Notes under the pieces: model-generated
Database searches by the model: none
Seen by the model: the letters and a program-made list of their open reading frames with translations, nothing else
What the model was told of the DNA's origin: nothing
Assembly: GCA_023266115.1 (NCBI GenBank)
Contig: JAHFRU010000015.1
Location: 1-64,000, forward strand
Direction of reading: 5' to 3'
Length of the DNA stretch: 64,000 nucleotides
Source of the DNA: Gammaproteobacteria bacterium
Lineage (GTDB): Bacteria > Pseudomonadota > Gammaproteobacteria > VBWC01
Shown: positions 2,073 through 32,335 of the stretch, in pieces
How positions within the stretch are numbered: position 1 is the stretch's first letter
Layout: each line of letters opens with the position of its first letter
Translations under genes and position numbers: made by a program

Positions 2073-2121
2073 GCCTAACATTTGATTTCAGGACCGTCGG
2101 CGCTGCAGCGAATTGTTGGGC
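2073..2121 (-). other. attC-like integron recombination site
   Basis: This is the clearest site of the series. On the minus strand it begins GCCCAACAA and ends TGTTAGGC, so both outer heptamers match the attC consensus and pair with one mismatch. A perfect CGCTGCAGCG palindrome lies at 2101-2110. It starts 16 bp after the stop of the AHSA1-like gene and precedes the exported-protein gene by 110 bp. The 49-bp length is at the small end of the range known for attC sites. Confidence 0.65.
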
Positions 2122-2137
2122 GCCGGCCGCACATTGA

Positions 2138-2584
2138 TTACTGCCGAATTTCTGGCTCGACGAGTTTTGCGAGTAAAACAAGCGACTCCTGCCACCCGAG
2201 GTAACACATTTCAACGGGGATGACGTCAGGAATACCTTCCTGAATCACATTCAATTCCGTTCCACAGGACACCGCCTTCAAAGACACCGTCACCTGTATG
2301 ACGCCTGGAAGGTTTGGGTCATCGAATTTATCTGTGTAGCGGATCAGTTCGTTTGGCACCAGTTCGACGTATTCACCGCCGAACGAATGGCTCTGCCCGG
2401 TGGTGAAGTTGGTGAAGGACATTCTGAATGTCCCACCAACTCTAGGGTCCATGTGATGCACCGTTGCGGTGAATCCGTTCGGAGGAAGCCACTTGGCCAT
2501 CGCATCGGCAGTGAGGAATGCGCGATACACCCTTTCCGGTGATGCGCGTAAAACACGGTGGAAACGAACAGTGTTGGTGGCCAC
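2138..2584 (-). CDS. SRPBCC/AHSA1-family protein, 148 aa
   Basis: The sequence follows the AHSA1 (activator of Hsp90 ATPase-like, START/Bet v1 fold) pattern. It has the opening residues for helix one (SPERVYRAFL, about 14-23), the KWLPP motif near 31-35 and the central DPRVGGTFRM stretch. It ends in an amphipathic C-terminal helix (GWQESLVLLAKLVE) that closes the hydrophobic cavity. Length is typical for the family. These proteins bind hydrophobic ligands, and most members have no assigned substrate. It is cytoplasmic, with no signal peptide. The gene lies between candidate attC sites at 2073-2121 and 2646-2690. AHSA1-type proteins are recurrent integron cassette cargo, but that is general knowledge and not proof here. 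Confidence 0.8.
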   Translation of the reverse strand: MATNTVRFHRVLRASPERVYRAFLTADAMAKWLPPNGFTATVHHMDPRVGGTFRMSFTNFTTGQSHSFGGEYVELVPNELIRYTDKFDDPNLPGVIQVTVSLKAVSCGTELNVIQEGIPDVIPVEMCYLGWQESLVLLAKLVEPEIRQ

Positions 2585-2645
2585 GATTATTGCCCCTTTT
2601 TGTTGTTGGACCTCGGCGTCTGTTTCTGCAAAGCATTTTGAAGAT

Positions 2646-2690
2646 GACTAACGCAGAGCTCCAGGGCGCGCCCCTGAACGCTTGTTGGGC
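2646..2690 (-). other. Candidate attC recombination site
   Basis: On the minus strand this 45-bp site starts GCCCAACAAGCG, 4 bp after the cytochrome stop codon, and ends CGTTAGTC. One base departs from GTTRRRY. The centre is an almost perfect palindrome (CAGGGCGCGCCCCTG). It shares GCCCAACAA with the site at 2073-2121, which supports a common origin. Confidence 0.55.
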
Positions 2691-2693
2691 TAC

Positions 2694-3290
2694 TTATTCG
2701 CCGGGCGCCGAATCCGGGGCGGGCGGAACTGGAGCCGGGACGACATTCGAGATCGGCGGTAGAGATTTGAGATACGCGAACACGGCCCGCAGGTCTTCGT
2801 CAGTCATCAGCGCGAAATCCATCCATGGCATGGGCGGCAGGATGTCGCGCCCGACGCCAGCATGTTTGCCGGTACGCATGGCCTGAATGAATATCTCCGG
2901 CGTCCAGCTCGCTAATCCTGTAGCGTCCGGAGTGAGATTCGCCGTATAACTCACGCCCCACGGGCCGGCCCACGCGGTGAGATCATTGTTCGCGAGTGCG
3001 CCCCACTGGTCGGGGCCGATGACACCTGGCGGCACCGAAGGTAATTTGGCATCCGCCGGATGGCCGGACAGAAGGCGGGTTTTGTCAGGTTCTGGGCCAT
3101 TCGCTGTGAATAATTTCGGCGTGTGACAATCGCCGCAACCTACCACATTCACGAGATAGAGCCCCCGTTCGACGGGAGTGACCTGGGTGGTGCGAGGCGG
3201 CTCCGGCTTTGTGCACGCTACGACGACGCCTAACGCAGCTGCGATTGAGAAAATTCCGGAAAGACTTCGACGATGAGTTCGTGGGTACAT
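2694..3290 (-). CDS. Monohaem c-type cytochrome, probable lipoprotein, 198 aa
   Basis: The N-terminus is a lipoprotein signal peptide, with a lipobox ending in VVAC and Cys26 as the acylation site. One haem-binding motif, CGDCH, lies at residues 52-56. The C-terminal third contains PPMPW and the helix TDEDLRAVFAYLKSLPP, the usual distal-methionine and last-helix pattern of class I cytochromes c. It is probably anchored in the periplasm and transfers electrons; the partner is unknown. An AGGAG ribosome-binding site precedes the ATG. It is the right-hand gene of the putative cassette array and is followed after 4 bp by a candidate attC. Confidence 0.8.
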   Translation of the reverse strand: MYPRTHRRSLSGIFSIAAALGVVVACTKPEPPRTTQVTPVERGLYLVNVVGCGDCHTPKLFTANGPEPDKTRLLSGHPADAKLPSVPPGVIGPDQWGALANNDLTAWAGPWGVSYTANLTPDATGLASWTPEIFIQAMRTGKHAGVGRDILPPMPWMDFALMTDEDLRAVFAYLKSLPPISNVVPAPVPPAPDSAPGE

Positions 3291-3832
3291 CTATTTCTCC
3301 TGTTCAGTTGGGTTGTTTCGTTCTTGTCAGCCATTTTGTACCGACACCCCGCCTCGACGGTGGCCCAGCCGCCCCTATGAACCGGGCCGGACCCGTCCAG
3401 CTGATTCTACGATAAACCTGGCCCACATGGTTCGCCGGCAGGCACCGCACTTTCAGCGTCAACATCGATACCGCAAGAGAACGCACGCCCCGAAAGTACG
3501 AGAGCATCAGTCTGCTCGACAATGCGCCGCAACAACGCGATGATCGCGAATAGCACGTGCACGGGCGCTTTCCTTGGCGCTATTATTCTGCAGCTGAAAA
3601 TAGACGTCCAAGGCCGGATTGCCAGTCAATTCCGACAGGTTTCGACTGCGCGTCATTGGAACTGGCGTATCATCGCAGAGGGAAGGGTCGGCCATGGCGG
3701 CCTGACTCAAACAAACGAGTCTCCGGGGAAACCGGGGCGGTTCAGTGAATAATGAAACTGTTGCATTCAACACTCGACAAAATCGTGTTCCGCAGCACCT
3801 CGAATGTTGCCGGCAGCAACGGCGAGATCTTC
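3291..3832. other. Intergenic region without a recognisable gene
   Basis: About 540 bp between the cytochrome gene and the exported propeller protein. Short open frames exist on both strands, but none has family-like sequence or a convincing ribosome-binding site. No integrase gene or attI-like site was recognised here, although this is the side where an integron platform would be expected. It presumably holds the divergent promoters of the two flanking genes. Confidence 0.5.
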
Positions 3833-5266
3833 ATGAATGAACCGCCACACGCGGCACCCGCCGCGGCCGGCGGTAATAGGTTCGCCTTCAAGCGCGGTGC
3901 CGCCGCGCTGCTGCTCGCGATGCTGTTTGCGAGCGGCGTACGCGCCGCCGAACCGGCATCCAGGCCGGACGGCAAGACCGAGACATTCCGCCTGACCCCC
4001 GTCTATGCGGCCGTCATGCATACCAAGCCGATGTTCCGCCGTGCGTTGGGTCATACGATGCATCATGGCGGGGATGTCACCACAGACAAATCCGACAAGC
4101 ACGACGAGCATGCCGGCCAGCCCAATGCGCGGCTGCCTCGGCCGTGGATCCCGGTAGACCTGTCGGTGGCACCGAATGGCGAGCTGTGGCTGATTCAGCG
4201 CCTCGAACAATCCGCCGGGTTCGACGACATGACCGAGTGCCCCGTCGATGCCAAGCGACCGGCGGATTGCGAAGCGCTGCTCGGCTCGACCGTGACCTTG
4301 CGCGAGCCGCAAGCCGTGGAGGCGGCAAGCGCAGCCAACGGTCGTGCCACCCTGATAATCGACTACAACGCCTGGCACTTCATGCGCCGACCCAGCGCCA
4401 TCGCGTTCGGCGCCGGACAAGTCTGGCTCGAACCCGAAGATCCGGGCGCGATACACGACACACGCCGGTTGCTGACCAAACGCGCCGCGTTCAAACGCAC
4501 ATTCGCCACCTGCGCGGAACACCGTACTGCCAACTTCACCGACCAGCCGTTCTTTATTGGCCCAACGCTGTGGACGGCCGACCTCGCCATCTACAACGGC
4601 ACCAAAGGGGCTTACGACTGGTCCAATGGAGCGCATCTCGACATGGTCCATGGAACCGCCTATTGCATGGGCATCGCCTGGGAACGCGACACACGCTACT
4701 GGACCTTCAACGGAACATTCGGCACGCTCGACCTTTACGACTTCGGCGCGCCCCATCTCCCCGGACACTATTACCACGCCAACGCGGCCGTGACCCGCTA
4801 CCGCTTCGGCGAAACACCGCTGGCGCGCCTGCCCAATGTGCCAAGCAACATGGTGCTGGTCGGCAAACAACTGTTCATCGCCGATTCCGGCAACGGCCGC
4901 CTGGTCGCGTTCGATACCGCGGCCAAAGGCCGCTTCGCCGAATTCCACTTCAGCCTGCCTCCCGAACTGCAACGCATCCAGGTCCTCGAAGGCGTCCCGC
5001 TGCGTGACATCGCCTCGCGGCAGACCCTGGCCAAGCTGTGGGGTGAACAGGTGGAGCCCAGCGGACTGGCGTGGGTGGACAAGCAAACCCTGGCGCTGGC
5101 CAACCACGCCAGCGGTCACATCACGCTGCTGGATCTGGATGGCAAGGTGCTGCGCACCATCGACACCGGTTTAGGCAAAGGCATCGGCGGGATGACGGCA
5201 ATGGGCGGCGCCCTGTATTTCGCCCACATGGGTACACGCAAGGTCTATCGACTTGAGATCAAGTGA
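3833..5266 (+). CDS. Exported beta-propeller (NHL-like) protein, 477 aa
   Basis: I start the gene at the internal ATG because it places the hydrophobic signal segment at residues 20-38, with cleavage near VRA-AEP. An ATG 27 codons upstream would bury it. A His/Met-rich segment follows (around residues 63-100: MHTKPMF, HTMHHGGD, DKHDEHAG), a possible metal-binding stretch. The remainder shows blade-like repeats such as PWIPVDLSVAPNGELWLIQR, FIADSGNGRLVAFD and HITLLDLDGKVLRT, typical of NHL/six-bladed propellers. Several Cys pairs could be oxidised in the periplasm. Substrate and partners are unknown. The gene stands alone between the cassette-like genes and the insertion-sequence remnants. Confidence 0.7.
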   Translation: MNEPPHAAPAAAGGNRFAFKRGAAALLLAMLFASGVRAAEPASRPDGKTETFRLTPVYAAVMHTKPMFRRALGHTMHHGGDVTTDKSDKHDEHAGQPNARLPRPWIPVDLSVAPNGELWLIQRLEQSAGFDDMTECPVDAKRPADCEALLGSTVTLREPQAVEAASAANGRATLIIDYNAWHFMRRPSAIAFGAGQVWLEPEDPGAIHDTRRLLTKRAAFKRTFATCAEHRTANFTDQPFFIGPTLWTADLAIYNGTKGAYDWSNGAHLDMVHGTAYCMGIAWERDTRYWTFNGTFGTLDLYDFGAPHLPGHYYHANAAVTRYRFGETPLARLPNVPSNMVLVGKQLFIADSGNGRLVAFDTAAKGRFAEFHFSLPPELQRIQVLEGVPLRDIASRQTLAKLWGEQVEPSGLAWVDKQTLALANHASGHITLLDLDGKVLRTIDTGLGKGIGGMTAMGGALYFAHMGTRKVYRLEIK

Positions 5267-5299
5267 CGTCGCTGAGGAGCGAGACGTTGCCCCCATTCT

Positions 5300-5390
5300 C
5301 GTAGCCTCGATGAAGCGCAGCGCAATCGAGAATGCCGTGACTCCGAACCACCGGCAACCCCGGATTTCATTTCATTCCATCCGGGCTACG
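5300..5390. repeat. REP-like inverted pair
   Basis: Two related palindromic units face each other. Unit one at 5300-5330 begins CGTAGCCTCGATGAAG and closes with ATCGAG. Unit two at 5358-5390 on the minus strand begins CGTAGCCCGGATGGAA and closes with ATCCGGGG. Both share the head CGTAGCC and a self-complementary GATG...ATC body, the form of widespread bacterial repetitive extragenic palindromes. They lie 34 bp after the stop of the propeller-protein gene and may protect or terminate its transcript. Confidence 0.6.
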
Positions 5391-5472
5391 CTTGCTTGAC
5401 TCTCGCGCCAAGCAGCTTCAATTCTTGAGCATCCTTTCGGGCCGAAGGCCACCATTGCTTCGAGGGTTTTTA

Positions 5473-5583
5473 AGGGGTCAGAGCCACTGCTGTCCCAGCA
5501 AATAAATAAGAAAAGCCTGATTTCGAGTCCTTTGTTAAAATGTAGTTGTCTGGAAAACACTAATAACAAAGGGAAATCAGGCG
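5473..5583 (+). repeat. Left-end region of an IS4-type element
   Basis: This stretch starts AGGGGTCAGAGCC, contains the dispersed core CACTGCTGTCCCA (5485-5497, also at both ends of the 549-762 element) and leads directly into the transposase fragment at 5584. AGCCTGATTTC near 5515 and GAAATCAGGC near 5573 form an inverted repeat just upstream of the ATG, possibly a hairpin over the translation start. The exact outer boundary cannot be set from one copy. Confidence 0.4.
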
Positions 5584-5712
5584 ATGGCTTATCATAATAC
5601 AACGCTCTCCCCAATACTCAAAATGGTGCCGAGACTTGAATTCGAAAAGCTGGGAAATCAGCATGACGGCAGTTTTCAAGATAGTTGTCACCGTTTCGAT
5701 CATGGGGCCTGA
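5584..5712 (+). pseudogene. N-terminal fragment of an IS4-type transposase
   Basis: Residues 1-30 match the start of IS4-family transposases with the DUF4372 N-terminal domain: MAYHNTTLSPILKMVPR, then LEFEKLGNQHDGSF. Family similarity stops after about codon 31, where the sequence enters the terminal repeat of an IS3-type remnant at 5683, and a stop follows at codon 43. The catalytic part is entirely absent. I infer truncation by insertion of the IS3 remnant, or by a deletion ending there. Confidence 0.65.
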
Positions 5713-6205
5713 GCCTGTGGGTCAGCCGATTTTCCCGGGTTGAGGCAGACACTCTGTGGCAGTGACCAGTTCCGGCTGTCACCACTCCATCGGCGCGGGT
5801 TGCGCGCACGTGCTGTCTCATAAACATCCATGCGCTGTTTCATAATCTCCTCTGCCTGCGCGGTATGGCGCTGTTCCGGTGTCACGAAGTTCAGCCCGCT
5901 GTGCCGGTGCCCGGTGTTGTACCACGCCTCGAAGCGCAGCATCCAGGCACGGGCCTTGTCCAGTGTGGCAAAGCCCTCACTCGGATATTCCGGCCGGTAC
6001 TTGCACGTCCGGAACACGCTCTCCGCCAATTGTACAGGGTCGTTTCCGTGATGCCTGTCTCCTTCGATAACTCCGCCATCGATCGACTCTCCGGCGGCAT
6101 CATTCGCTTCAACACAGTCTGCTTCAACTCCTGCGAATACCTCGACATCTCTCGTCATCTTCCGCCTCCCGCTCGCTCCAGAGATTACAGAAATCAGTGA
6201 CAACT
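5683..6205 (-). mobile_element. Internally deleted IS3-family element
   Basis: Terminal inverted repeats are visible: AGTTGTCACCGTTTC at 5683-5697, and AGTTGTCACTGATTT on the minus strand at 6205-6191. Eleven of the first twelve bases agree. Between them lie only the start of orfA and the last third of orfB, about 520 bp in place of the usual 1.2-1.5 kb. The element is non-autonomous but keeps both ends, so it could in principle be mobilised by a complete relative elsewhere in the genome. Confidence 0.65.
5700..6148 (-). pseudogene. Fused remnant of IS3-family orfA and orfB
   Basis: The ATG at 6148 starts a typical orfA helix-turn-helix: MSRYSQELKQTVLKRMM, then SMAELSKETGITETTLYNW. After about 40 codons, near 6025, the sequence jumps in another frame to the end of an orfB transposase: ESVFRTCKYRPEYP, FEAWYNTGHRHSG, and ARARNPRRWSG, ending near LNPGK. 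The linker, most of the integrase core and the first two catalytic Asp residues are gone. The product would be inactive. Confidence 0.65.
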
Positions 6206-27443: not shown

Positions 27444-28184
27444 ATGCAGCCAATTCTCGTTTTTCGTCATATCGAATGCGAAGGCCCGGGATTTTTCGGC
27501 ACGGTCCTGGATCGCCATGCACTGCCGTATCGAATCATCCAGGTCGACAACGGCGAACCGGTGCCGCGCGACAGCAGCGGTGCGGCCGCGCTGGTGTTCA
27601 TGGGCGGGCCGATGAGCGTCAACGATCCGCTGCCGTGGATCAGCGCGGAACTGGCGCTGATCCGCCAGGCCGTCGACCGTAATCTGCCGGTACTTGGTCA
27701 TTGTCTTGGCGGCCAGCTGATCAGCCGGGCGCTGGGCGGTGAAATCACGCGCAACCCGGTCACGGAAATCGGCTGGCACGACGTCACGCGCGTCGACGAC
27801 GCACTCACGACGGACTGGCGCCGTTGTTTGCCGGCCCGGTTCGAGGCGTTTCACTGGCACGGCGAAACGTTCTCGATCCCGCCGGGTGCGCAGCGAATCC
27901 TGCAGAGCGCGTTCTGTCCGAACCAGGCCTTCGTCATCAATAACGCGCTGGCGCTGCAATGTCACATCGAAATGACAACCGCCATGGTGGACACATGGGC
28001 GGATATCTACCAGCATGAAACCGCCACGCCGTCGATCAGCGTCCAGACCAGGGACACCATGCTGACGGATCTCGACGAGCGTGTCGCTGCGTTGCAGACA
28101 GTGGCTGAAGCGCTGTACCTTCGGTGGCTTGAGCCCTTGCTCTGCGGCGCTAGCGTGAGCACAGCAGAGATCATCCGCCGGTAG
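27444..28184 (+). CDS. Class I glutamine amidotransferase-like protein
   Basis: The 246-aa protein has the class I GATase fold. The nucleophile Cys lies in VLGHCLGGQLISRALGG (about 87-103), FMGGPMSV forms the oxyanion strand, and the catalytic His-x-Glu lies in LQCHIEMT near 174-181. FHWHGETFSIP before it is typical of the GMP-synthase-like stand-alone family. Substrate is unknown. The homologues I recall are annotated only as type 1 GATase or GMP synthase-like. It lies between folE2 and the porin gene without overlap. Confidence 0.8.
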   Translation: MQPILVFRHIECEGPGFFGTVLDRHALPYRIIQVDNGEPVPRDSSGAAALVFMGGPMSVNDPLPWISAELALIRQAVDRNLPVLGHCLGGQLISRALGGEITRNPVTEIGWHDVTRVDDALTTDWRRCLPARFEAFHWHGETFSIPPGAQRILQSAFCPNQAFVINNALALQCHIEMTTAMVDTWADIYQHETATPSISVQTRDTMLTDLDERVAALQTVAEALYLRWLEPLLCGASVSTAEIIRR

Positions 28185-28290: not shown

Positions 28291-29412
28291 ATGAATACTG
28301 ACAGTCACCGCCCCGCCGCCCGGCCAGACAAAAAACCTCCGAAGCAGTTCTATCGTACGCTCGGCCCGGCGTTGCTGGCGCTCGCCGCCTGCCAGATTGC
28401 CGCCCCGGCACAGGCTGCGGAGGCAGACCAGTTCTTCTTCTTTCCGGCGGCGGCCTATGCGTGGCGCTCCGAAGACCCCGCCGGCGCTGCCAGGAAACGC
28501 GAAGGCGAGATAGACCTCGATCTGTTCTACACAACCGACAGGGGCCACCTGCGGTTCCTCGCCGAGGTGTTCGGCAAAACAGGCGGCGAAAGTGAAATCG
28601 AGATCGAACGCCTGCAGATCTCGTGGGAACTTTGGCCCGGCTCCCGGCTGTGGCTGGGCCGGTTTCACAACCCGATCGGTTACTGGAATACCGACTATCA
28701 CCACGGCAACTATCTCCAGACGACAATTTCACGCCCGGGCATCGACGCTTTCGAGGACGATGGCGGCGTTCTGCCGATGCATATCGCGGGGGCGCTGCTG
28801 GAAGGATATACCGCGCTCGCCGGTGCTCTGTGGCGCTACGATGTCGCCCTTGGCGCGGGCCCCGAAATAAATTCGGGCCTGCAACCGGTTGCCGTCTACC
28901 AGCCCGGGGTCGGCGCCCATGACGCGTCATTCACCGCCCGCCTGTCATGGCAACCCAAGGACACTAACAATCAGGTCGGCGTGTTTGCCGGGCTCAACCT
29001 GTTTCCTGGCGCGAGTCTGACACCGGTCGACGTCCGCCAGCAACTGGCCGGCCTGTTCACGAACTGGCATTTCGGAACACGCACCGACCTGCTGGCGGTG
29101 ATCTATTTCGTCGATAACGAGCTGACGTCTCCCGGCGCGACAACACAGGAATCGTTTCGTGACGGCTATATCCAGCTGGAGCAGGCGCTCGGCGCGCAGT
29201 GGATCGCCTACGGACGCGCGGAGGGTAGCAGCGGCGCCACCGGAAATGCCTATCTGAATCTGCTTGGCGGATTCGTCCGCGAGCGGCAACTCATCGGTCT
29301 GCGCTACGACCTCGCAAAAAACCAGGCGGTCAAGGCGGAGATCAGCAAGGTCCACCTGCTGGGCGACAGGTTCGACCAGATCAATTTGCAGTGGAGCGCG
29401 GTATATCCATGA
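28291..29412 (+). CDS. Porin-like outer-membrane protein, 373 aa
   Basis: A signal peptide is visible (hydrophobic residues 24-42, cleavage after AQA). The mature protein is built of alternating beta strands with Gly/Tyr-rich turns: LDLFYTTDRGHLRFLAEVF, then RLWLGRFHNPIGYWN, and FAGLNLFPG. It ends in a strand with a Tyr-Pro terminus (QWSAVYP). This suggests an outer-membrane barrel of about 16 strands. I do not recognise a specific substrate. The next gene starts inside its stop codon (ATGA), so it belongs to an operon with a PBP-like protein and a GGDEF-EAL protein. This ties a surface barrel to cyclic-di-GMP signalling. Confidence 0.7.
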   Translation: MNTDSHRPAARPDKKPPKQFYRTLGPALLALAACQIAAPAQAAEADQFFFFPAAAYAWRSEDPAGAARKREGEIDLDLFYTTDRGHLRFLAEVFGKTGGESEIEIERLQISWELWPGSRLWLGRFHNPIGYWNTDYHHGNYLQTTISRPGIDAFEDDGGVLPMHIAGALLEGYTALAGALWRYDVALGAGPEINSGLQPVAVYQPGVGAHDASFTARLSWQPKDTNNQVGVFAGLNLFPGASLTPVDVRQQLAGLFTNWHFGTRTDLLAVIYFVDNELTSPGATTQESFRDGYIQLEQALGAQWIAYGRAEGSSGATGNAYLNLLGGFVRERQLIGLRYDLAKNQAVKAEISKVHLLGDRFDQINLQWSAVYP

Positions 29413-29867
29413 GACGGTTCGGCTATGTTGCGCTACTGCTAACGGGTTTGCTGGTGCTTTCCGCCGGCCATGCCCTGGCCGGCGAGCGGCGGCTGGTGCT
29501 GGTCGGCAGCCCCGAGCTGCGCGGTCTCGATTTGAATGCCGCTGAAATCCGTCAACTTTTTCTCGGTTATGCCGTTACCAAAGACAACCACGAGGTGACG
29601 GCAGCCATCAACAAGAGCGACGCGCTGCTGTATGAGGTCTTCCTGCAAAAAGTGATTTTTATGTCGTCCCAGACGTATGAGCGGCAACTGGTAGCGAAGG
29701 TGTTTCATTACGGGGGGCAATTGCCACCCACCTTTGCCAGACCGGAGGAGCTGACCGCCGCGTTGAACAGCCGGCCCGGTCTGGTCACCTTTATGTGGGA
29801 AGACTATGTGCGACAACTGTCCAATGTGACGGTCGTAAACGAACTATGGCATGGCTCGATCGAATAG
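29409..29867 (+). CDS. Small PBP-like periplasmic protein
   Basis: I start at the ATG overlapping the porin stop, which gives 152 aa with a clean signal peptide (cleavage after HALA, residue 24). The mature part follows the short PBP-like family related to phosphate-binding PstS domains: LNAAEIRQLFLGYAV, then YEVFLQKVIFMSSQTYERQ, and LNSRPGLVTFMWED. Only one lobe's worth of sequence is present, so it is a truncated binding-protein type and not an ABC transporter component. No permease is nearby. The 3' end overlaps the GGDEF-EAL gene by 22 bp. It may pass a periplasmic signal to that membrane sensor. Confidence 0.72.
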   Translation: MRRFGYVALLLTGLLVLSAGHALAGERRLVLVGSPELRGLDLNAAEIRQLFLGYAVTKDNHEVTAAINKSDALLYEVFLQKVIFMSSQTYERQLVAKVFHYGGQLPPTFARPEELTAALNSRPGLVTFMWEDYVRQLSNVTVVNELWHGSIE

Positions 29868-32335
29868 GAAAATACCTGAGCACGCTGAGCGGCCATCTGG
29901 TCGCCGGCGGCCTGCTGATACACGCCATACTGATTCCGCTGCTCTTTGTTGGCATCGGCGCAATAGTCGCGCAGTTCAGCGAAGCCCGGTTCATTAACCA
30001 GATCCGTTCGGATTCCTGGCTGTTCTCGCGGCTGCTGATTCGTGATCTGACGCCTGAACACGCCCAGACGCTACTCGATAACGCGGTGCTGGACGGGCAC
30101 GTCATATATGCTGCACTTGAAATGCCGGGGGGGGCCATCACCGCCAAAGGCAGTCTCGGCTCAGGACATCTGCTATTCCGCGAGGATTTCTTTTTTGGCC
30201 AGCACGGCGACGGTGTTTACAACGTCATTATCCCGGTGGCAACCGACGACTACCCGGACGCAAAGCTCAAGCTGAGTTATGACGAGTCCACGACGACGGA
30301 CCATCTCAACACCATTTATAAAAGCGGCCTGTATCTGGTTGGCGCCTACGTATTTCTGTCGATGATCTTCGGCACCTATATGGGTATGTGGGTAACCCGC
30401 CCGTTGCGTGCTCTGCGCGATGTCGCGCGTGCCGTCGCCTCCGGCGCAACCGACAAAACGCTCGCGGTCGACACGCGCATCTCCGAGGTAAAAAGTCTCG
30501 CCGCCGATCTCGATTCCATGCGTGCCAAACTCGTCAAGCACAGCGAAGAAATCGCTGCCAGCGAGACGCATCTGCGTGCCGTCATGGATAACGTCATGGA
30601 CGCCATCGTGACCACCGATGCCAACGGCATCGTCCAGTCCTGCAACCCCGCTACCGGCAGGATCTTCGGCTATGGCGTTGATGAACTCGCGGGCAAATCC
30701 GTCGATCTGCTGCTTGCGCCCGATGCCGCCGGCGCGAAGGCTGCGTCAGATCGCGTCATGGGCACAGCGCCTGAACAACCTGGCGACATGCTGGGCCGGC
30801 GCAGGGATGCCAGCGAGTTCCCGATCGAAATGATGGTCAGCGAGATGTTTCTGAACGAGCAGCGTCATCGGGTGGTTGTGTTCCGGGACATTACCGAACG
30901 CAAACACGCCGAAAGGGAATTGCTCGATCTGCAGGCCAGCCTCGAGCAACGCGTGGTGCGCCGCACCAAAGAGCTGGCGGCGGCCAACGAGCGGCTGGAG
31001 TATCAGGCATTGCACGACGCGCTGACGGACCTGCCGAACCGCGTATTGCTCAAGGACCGGCTGCAGCAGGCCATCCAGGTGGCGCGGGAGCAGCGTCATT
31101 CGCTGGCGCTACTGATGCTCGATCTGAACCGCTTCAAGGAGGTCAACGACACGCTCGGTCATCATATGGGCGATCTGCTGCTGCAACAGGTCGCGAAGCG
31201 CAAGCAGCAGGTACTGAAGGAAGCGGATACCCTGGCCCGGCTGGGCGGCGATGAATTCGCGGTCCTGATTCCGCACGTCAAGAACGTGCAGGAAGCAAAC
31301 GGTATTGCCCGCCGTGTCGTCAGGATCATGGACGAGCCTTTCATCATCGAAGGTCACAGTTTCCGCATCGGCACCAGCGCCGGTATCGCCATCTATCCGG
31401 AACACGGCACGGACGTTGCGACGTTGATGCGTCACGCCGACGTCGCACTGTATGTCGCCAAGGGTGGCAACAGTGGCTACAGCGTTTACGATGCGGTAAA
31501 GGACGAACATACGGTAAATCGCCTCGCCCTGATGAACGATCTGCGCCGCGGCATTGATCATGACGAGCTGCTGCTGCATTACCAGCCCAAGATCAGCGCG
31601 ACCACCGGCAGAATTTCCGAAGTAGAGGCGCTGGTGCGGTGGAAACATCCACGACGCGGGCTGACCATGCCGGACGAGTTCATCTATCTCGCCGAACACA
31701 GCGGCCTCATCCGCCCGCTCACTGGATGGGTGCTGGAGGCGGCGATACAACAGAGCCGCAGTTTTGCCGTGGAAGGCATCGATCCGCCGCCTGTCGCCGT
31801 CAACCTGTCGATGCATAACCTGCACGATGCGCAGCTGCCCGAGTTCATCGCACGTGTGCTCAGCACCTGGCAAATGAGCCCCGGTCAACTGATGCTGGAA
31901 ATCACCGAGAGCGCGATCATGGCAGACTCGGTCAGCGCGCTGGACGTGCTGACCCGGTTGCATTACATGGGCATCCGGCTCGCCATCGACGACTTCGGCA
32001 CCGGCTATTCGTCACTGGCCTATCTCAAGCAGCTACCGGTCGACGAGATCAAGATCGATAAATCCTTCACGATAGACCTCGACAAAAACCCGGGGGATCT
32101 GGTCATCGTCCGCTCGACCATCGACCTGGCACATAACATGGGACTGAAAGTTACCGCCGAAGGTGTCGAATCGCGCAAGGCGTGGGATATCCTCGTGGAT
32201 CTTGGCTGCGACATGCTACAGGGCTATTACATCACCCCGCCTATCGCGGCGGACAAACTGCGCGAATGGCTGGTGAAAGACAAGGCAGGCGGTTTTCGCC
32301 AGTTTCAGTCGCCGCGCCGTACGCACGGCAGTTAA
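29846..32335 (+). CDS. Membrane HAMP-PAS-GGDEF-EAL protein (c-di-GMP turnover)
   Basis: The product is 829 aa from the ATG at 29846. It has TM1 (residues 18-42), a periplasmic segment of about 115 residues, TM2 (161-181), a HAMP linker (182-235), PAS (about 240-355), GGDEF (390-555) and EAL (about 570-820). GGDEF is intact at 467-471. The inhibitory-site arginine is replaced (KEAD in place of RxxD). The EAL motif is EALVRW at 594-599, and DDFGTGYSSLAYLK is present, so both activities are plausible. The periplasmic domain probably senses through the PBP-like protein encoded immediately upstream. Confidence 0.88.
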   Translation: MAWLDRIGKYLSTLSGHLVAGGLLIHAILIPLLFVGIGAIVAQFSEARFINQIRSDSWLFSRLLIRDLTPEHAQTLLDNAVLDGHVIYAALEMPGGAITAKGSLGSGHLLFREDFFFGQHGDGVYNVIIPVATDDYPDAKLKLSYDESTTTDHLNTIYKSGLYLVGAYVFLSMIFGTYMGMWVTRPLRALRDVARAVASGATDKTLAVDTRISEVKSLAADLDSMRAKLVKHSEEIAASETHLRAVMDNVMDAIVTTDANGIVQSCNPATGRIFGYGVDELAGKSVDLLLAPDAAGAKAASDRVMGTAPEQPGDMLGRRRDASEFPIEMMVSEMFLNEQRHRVVVFRDITERKHAERELLDLQASLEQRVVRRTKELAAANERLEYQALHDALTDLPNRVLLKDRLQQAIQVAREQRHSLALLMLDLNRFKEVNDTLGHHMGDLLLQQVAKRKQQVLKEADTLARLGGDEFAVLIPHVKNVQEANGIARRVVRIMDEPFIIEGHSFRIGTSAGIAIYPEHGTDVATLMRHADVALYVAKGGNSGYSVYDAVKDEHTVNRLALMNDLRRGIDHDELLLHYQPKISATTGRISEVEALVRWKHPRRGLTMPDEFIYLAEHSGLIRPLTGWVLEAAIQQSRSFAVEGIDPPPVAVNLSMHNLHDAQLPEFIARVLSTWQMSPGQLMLEITESAIMADSVSALDVLTRLHYMGIRLAIDDFGTGYSSLAYLKQLPVDEIKIDKSFTIDLDKNPGDLVIVRSTIDLAHNMGLKVTAEGVESRKAWDILVDLGCDMLQGYYITPPIAADKLREWLVKDKAGGFRQFQSPRRTHGS

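Follow-up and report, generated by a model that had tools for sequence, protein, structure and literature searches.

The route from an envelope signal to a cyclic-di-GMP (c-di-GMP) enzyme has been worked out in a handful of systems. In YfiBNR, periplasmic YfiR exchanges between two partners, YfiB in the outer membrane and the PAS-type domain that YfiN exposes to the periplasm; this system has had its outputs swapped to GGDEF-EAL proteins or kinases, often lacks its outer-membrane part and, where YfiR is absent, does not keep the periplasmic domain and its binding residues (PMC3375315). YfiB sequesters YfiR, according to two reports (PMC3375315; PMC4655355). In NspS–MbaA of Vibrio cholerae, the gene just before that of the GGDEF-EAL sensor MbaA encodes the periplasmic binding protein NspS, which binds norspermidine, presents it to MbaA and regulates the sensor through the periplasmic domain of MbaA (PMC8079147). 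Here we analyse three overlapping genes at positions 28291–32335 on the + strand of a 64,000-nucleotide stretch of gammaproteobacterial DNA (the window; contig JAHFRU010000015.1), which encode an outer-membrane barrel candidate, a small exported periplasmic protein and a membrane sensor. By analogy, this trio would work like YfiBNR and NspS–MbaA but belong to neither, and it would add a further design to the known systems.

YfiBNR is the nearest working parallel: the trio shares with YfiBNR/TpbB and HmsCDE an outer-membrane part, a small periplasmic protein and an inner-membrane sensor with a PAS-like periplasmic domain, HAMP and GGDEF. As in YfiBNR, the outputs have been exchanged, loss of the outer-membrane part is frequent and conserved periplasmic residues disappear without the small protein. 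The components themselves differ: YfiB is an OmpA/PAL-type lipoprotein whereas the trio has a porin-like barrel candidate, and YfiR belongs to DUF4154 whereas the small protein of the trio resembles half of PstS. No OmpA match was found in the window barrel or in 19 relatives, and DUF4154 matched neither the window small protein (0 Pfam families at E ≤ 1) nor any of 23 relatives. The sensor follows the YfiBNR-type plan (PAS-type periplasmic domain, HAMP, GGDEF) as a fold class only, with no Pfam match to the YfiN periplasmic domain. Because the architecture is common to both systems but no component family is beyond GGDEF and HAMP, the trio appears to work like YfiBNR without being a member of it. 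The likeness to NspS–MbaA is that a gene for a binding-type protein immediately precedes that of a GGDEF-EAL sensor, which has a periplasmic domain; NspS is, however, a two-lobed polyamine-binding protein, whereas the trio has one PstS-like lobe and a barrel gene in the operon. YfiR and NspS are absent among the structural matches listed for the small protein, an absence that we do not count as evidence. A search of open-licence papers found no description of the half-PstS protein or of the trio, and three of its protein families (the barrel, the half-PstS protein and the sensor periplasmic domain) have no Pfam or NCBIfam name.

A conserved cassette of three overlapping genes

The trio consists of the barrel candidate (28291–29412, 373 amino acids), the small protein (29409–29867, 152 amino acids, ATG start at 29409) and the sensor (29846–32335, 829 amino acids, ATG start at 29846). 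An ATGA stop/start overlap of 4 bp joins the first two genes (29409–29412) and a 22-bp overlap the last two (29846–29867), as a sequence-only reading of the window had described; the small protein could also start at an in-frame GTG (29391), which is present in most relatives too. That reading had also proposed that the three genes form a signal-transduction module and had suggested checking whether their families recur together. Among 369 gammaproteobacterial genomes searched, the small protein has close relatives at 24 places, spread over 12 families as defined by the family codes of that collection. A homologous sensor directly follows the small protein at 24/24 of these places and a homologous barrel directly precedes it at 19/24, and all strong barrels (19/19) adjoin a small protein. 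A second collection (genome_contigs) yielded 36 loci, with the sensor at 36/36 and the barrel at 31/36; these loci overlap partly with the 369-genome set, and three are nearly identical. A thinner sample of the phylum (298 genomes) contained no further strong match. Rather than occurring apart or mostly with unrelated partners, the three families therefore travel together.

The trio spans at least 12 families, mostly of uncultured bacteria, and its source genomes include Thiohalobacter, Tenderia, Acidiferrobacteraceae, Chromatiales, a Thiobacillus and one Burkholderiales assembly. Both the 4-bp and the 22-bp overlap recur at many loci whose proteins are 30–45% identical, and because gene order, strand and overlaps persist at this divergence, the arrangement is more than chance. 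On sequence comparison, this conservation of cassette, order and overlaps is established.

The small protein and the barrel candidate

The small protein is a 152-residue precursor of about 125 mature residues with a conserved motif, FLQKVxFMSxxxYER. Searches of Pfam, NCBIfam and PHROG matched neither it nor the barrel to a family, and PDB sequence searches with either protein alone gave no convincing match to a solved structure. Its AlphaFold2 model (predicted local distance difference test (pLDDT) 88.9) predicts a single domain equivalent to one lobe of PstS, with Z 11.2 to 9l8j and Z 10.9 to 4exl, where it aligns to residues 106–234 of the 262-residue chain; phosphate-binding or phosphate-transport proteins stand in the top 16 rows of its structural-match list. 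The sequence-only reading had called this a one-lobe protein of periplasmic binding type, and the predicted structure agrees. By sequence, the small protein joins a wider half-PstS family (hhalign probability 99, E 8.5e-18) that matches PstS1 (E 1.3e-9) and, weakly, TIGR02136; hhalign of the small-protein family to the genome's own PstS, as a single sequence, gave no match.

Resemblance to PstS (PF12849, TIGR02136) is thus predicted for the fold of one lobe, but the trio protein is one lobe only, has no ligand cleft and has lost the phosphate motif, and no ABC permease genes were recognised by eye beside the trio within the window. Motif columns were traced in profile steps, by hhalign to the wider family and then HMMER to 4exl, and the R..GSGT position of PstS reads N68-K-S-D71-A72-L73-L74 in the window protein (consensus N..DPLL). 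With R..GSGT replaced by N..D-A/P-L-L, the phosphate site is gone. We also considered phosphate sensing and rejected it on the loss of this motif and the lack of PhoB box enrichment upstream of 48 barrels (mean score 8.9 versus 8.8 in shuffles). The small protein had been proposed to carry a periplasmic ligand signal to the sensor; this role is doubtful because a single lobe has no interlobe cleft and the phosphate residues are lost. For the same reasons a protein–protein adaptor is more likely than ligand delivery; the small protein would then be half of a transport protein, apparently put to new use as an adaptor in signalling.

The barrel candidate carries a conserved motif, LWLGRFHNPxGYWNxxYHHGxYLQTSISRP, and a signal peptide that, read by eye, ends AQA-AEA. 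Its profile matches a barrel of the wider family encoded elsewhere in the window's own genome (locus L113; E 6e-40), the sole relative that passes the Porin_O_P (PF07396) cut-off (25.6 versus 20.9 bits). Neither the window barrel, which has no match, nor any other trio barrel passes (best relative E 0.13), and a strand-periodicity test of the window protein gave 18 peaks against a shuffled mean of 13.1 and maximum of 20. The earlier call of a porin-like outer-membrane barrel consequently holds as a distant link to Porin_O_P and falls short of membership in that family, so that the assignment is supported only indirectly.

Sensor outputs and nested loss

The sensor reads as a first transmembrane segment, periplasmic domain, second transmembrane segment, HAMP (30380–30535, PF00672), PAS, GGDEF (31007–31465, PF00990) and EAL (31535–32242, PF00563), and its HAMP, PAS, GGDEF and EAL domains all exceed Pfam cut-offs. 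The GGDEF motif and the EALVRW, DDFGTG, EGVE and QGY motifs of the EAL domain are intact, and by domains and catalytic motifs the protein classes as a GGDEF-EAL c-di-GMP enzyme. The inhibitory site of the window GGDEF domain reads KxxD instead of RxxD; several relatives have RxxD. The periplasmic domain that the sequence-only reading placed at residues about 43–160 is borne out by the model (pLDDT 84.4; residues about 44–160, 29975–30325), which predicts a long N-terminal helix and a PAS/Cache-like sheet; R54, E113, D114, F115 and E147 are conserved in it. The structure that the sensor N-terminus matches best is that of WalK, taken from a WalK–YycH model (Z 13.6 over 217 residues), although high Z scores come easily with long-helix models, and output and accessory proteins differ from those of WalK/YycH; chemoreceptor domains match the periplasmic model at about Z 9–10.

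Behind this common periplasmic domain the output varies. The window sensor ends in PAS-GGDEF-EAL and other relatives in GGDEF-EAL without PAS, whereas L036, L051, L083 and L087 carry GGDEF alone, L050 and L052 a HisKA-HATPase kinase (L041 has HisKA in a broken frame) and L078 and L088 a hybrid kinase. By sequence, then, the input end is constant and the output is exchanged among GGDEF-EAL, GGDEF and histidine kinase. Pairwise distances between small proteins follow the sensor periplasmic domain more closely than the GGDEF domain, with partial r values of 0.59 (controlling for GGDEF) and 0.29 (controlling for the periplasmic domain), respectively, a difference that is supportive at most because the pairs are not independent. 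Frame-broken genes, reflecting decay or sequencing error, occur for the small protein in L043 (3724–4207) and for the sensor in L041/L074 (1901–2940) and L069 (5381–7012).

Dependence among the three genes is nested. Within the trio family the small protein is never found without the sensor, nor the barrel without the small protein, and some sensors stand alone; as judged from these patterns, the barrel needs the small protein, the small protein needs the sensor and the sensor can do without either. Five stand-alone sensors (L098, L099, L102, L103, L106) occupy the window's own chromosomal place after dxs-queD-folE2, and pgpA-thiL-nusB lies downstream of three of them (L098, L102, L103) within the stretch taken. 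Because stand-alone sensors are scattered inside trio clades of the tree, barrel and small protein were probably lost jointly, more than once. Conservation of R54 falls from 98% to 27% in stand-alone sensors and that of F115 from 84% to 18%, and their periplasmic domains have diverged beyond the GGDEF-based expectation (mean residual −0.06 to −0.08), with L100 and L101 as exceptions that show no excess. At L101 (4318–6965) a truncated barrel runs into the sensor and the small protein is missing, apparently through recent deletion or assembly error. Co-occurrence, outputs swapped behind a constant periplasmic domain and nested loss together strongly support the proposal that the three genes form a conserved signalling module.

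A candidate relay, its alternatives and the wider family

We favour, at a probability of roughly 0.62, an envelope-spanning relay in which the outer-membrane barrel and the periplasmic half-PstS protein form the input to the inner-membrane sensor and so to c-di-GMP. The half-PstS protein, acting as an adaptor, would dock on the PAS/Cache-like periplasmic domain, and the signal would pass on via HAMP and PAS, adjusting how much c-di-GMP is made versus broken down. Like YfiR with YfiB and YfiN, it may shuttle from one partner, the barrel, to the other, the sensor, instead of behaving as a classical ligand-closing binding protein, and the simplest order of action would lead from barrel to small protein to sensor. 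We infer the physical contacts, the direction of regulation, the adaptor role and the nature of the signal. Several observations weigh against such a relay. Small protein and sensor are retained in one clade (six 'nobarrel' rows) where no barrel adjoins them, so the pair can do without a barrel; 12 sensor relatives, one of them at a contig end, lack the small protein, so the periplasmic domain can function in its absence. Co-expression alone could account for the conserved operon and overlaps, the barrel assignment is indirect, and the pairs behind the distance correlations and divergence residuals are not independent. The natural variants, with barrel lost, small protein lost or output swapped, make the wiring directly testable.

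Two other readings keep the sensor as receiver, and we regard each as possible though unlikely. Closer to the sequence-only reading, a selective porin would admit a small molecule that the half-PstS protein binds and presents to the sensor, as NspS does with norspermidine and MbaA. That pair is a working precedent (PMC8079147), barrel and small protein are distantly related to Porin_O_P and PstS, both solute families, and relative L057 adjoins genes reading, by eye, as pstCAB; the single lobe without a closing cleft, the replaced R..GSGT motif and the PhoB box scores all speak against it. Alternatively, and as a narrower version of the relay, the small protein would monitor barrel assembly or occupancy, its free form reporting outer-membrane stress with no external solute involved. 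The sequestration of YfiR by YfiB offers a parallel, strong trio barrels are not found without the small protein and the 4-bp coupling of the two genes is tight, but small protein–sensor pairs without an adjacent barrel exist and the contact between barrel and small protein is purely putative.

Readings that take the sensor out of the pathway fare worse. If the small protein served the barrel as a chaperone or in uptake, with the sensor merely co-transcribed, its pairing with a barrel in the wider half-PstS family, where weaker relatives adjoin a barrel-profile match at 20/28 inspected loci and mostly lack the trio sensor, would be expected. The trio small protein, however, is never without the sensor yet sometimes without the barrel, the opposite of that prediction, and its loss accompanies change in the sensor periplasmic domain, which makes a helper role improbable. 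Least probable is that the genes are unrelated and simply co-transcribed, hitch-hiking together at one syntenic place. The dxs-folE2/pgpA neighbourhood is indeed common to the window, L033, L035, L039, L064, L070 and L072, but these are a minority of loci; most of the remaining trios have other genomic locations and still keep order and overlaps, outputs are swapped behind a constant input, and recurrence in unrelated neighbourhoods already largely refutes the idea.

At six more of the 28 wider-family loci, Pfam or visual outer-membrane candidates lie nearby. The neighbouring transducers are chemoreceptors at L109, L113, L116 and L124, a hybrid kinase at L119 and dCache_3-GGDEF-EAL proteins at L128 and L130. 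On another contig of the window's own genome, L113 (G000:C34:70000-80000) encodes at 2079–5414 a methyl-accepting chemotaxis protein (MCP) chemoreceptor, a half-PstS protein and the barrel above the Porin_O_P cut-off. Because varied transducers stand beside it, the half-PstS protein and barrel appear to form a general-purpose input pair that feeds several outputs. More tentatively, and at somewhat less than even odds, the trio may represent an undescribed type of tripartite envelope sensor that is widespread in gammaproteobacteria: porin-derived barrels and half-PstS adaptors, derived from phosphate-uptake proteins but with phosphate binding lost, would act as an interchangeable input to c-di-GMP enzymes, histidine kinases and chemoreceptors.

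Other arrangements of the half-PstS domain were seen. A tandem pair of half-PstS genes without adjacent barrel or transducer lies in the window's genome at L061 (G000:C34:82000-91200; 4900–5846) and in a sister genome at L112. At L055 (3231–6112) a half-PstS domain forms the C-terminus of a J-domain protein beside a barrel gene, and L110 (4855–7674) appears similar by eye; such a fusion is possibly a membrane-tethered variant. At L057 (3447–10276) a half-PstS domain forms the C-terminus of a 751-amino-acid protein; its gene and one for a barrel stand next to the genes that read, by eye, as pstC, pstA and pstB. At the window's own locus, a glutamine-amidotransferase-like gene (27444–28184), not found at other syntenic loci, stands between folE2 and the trio and is also present in the sister genome.

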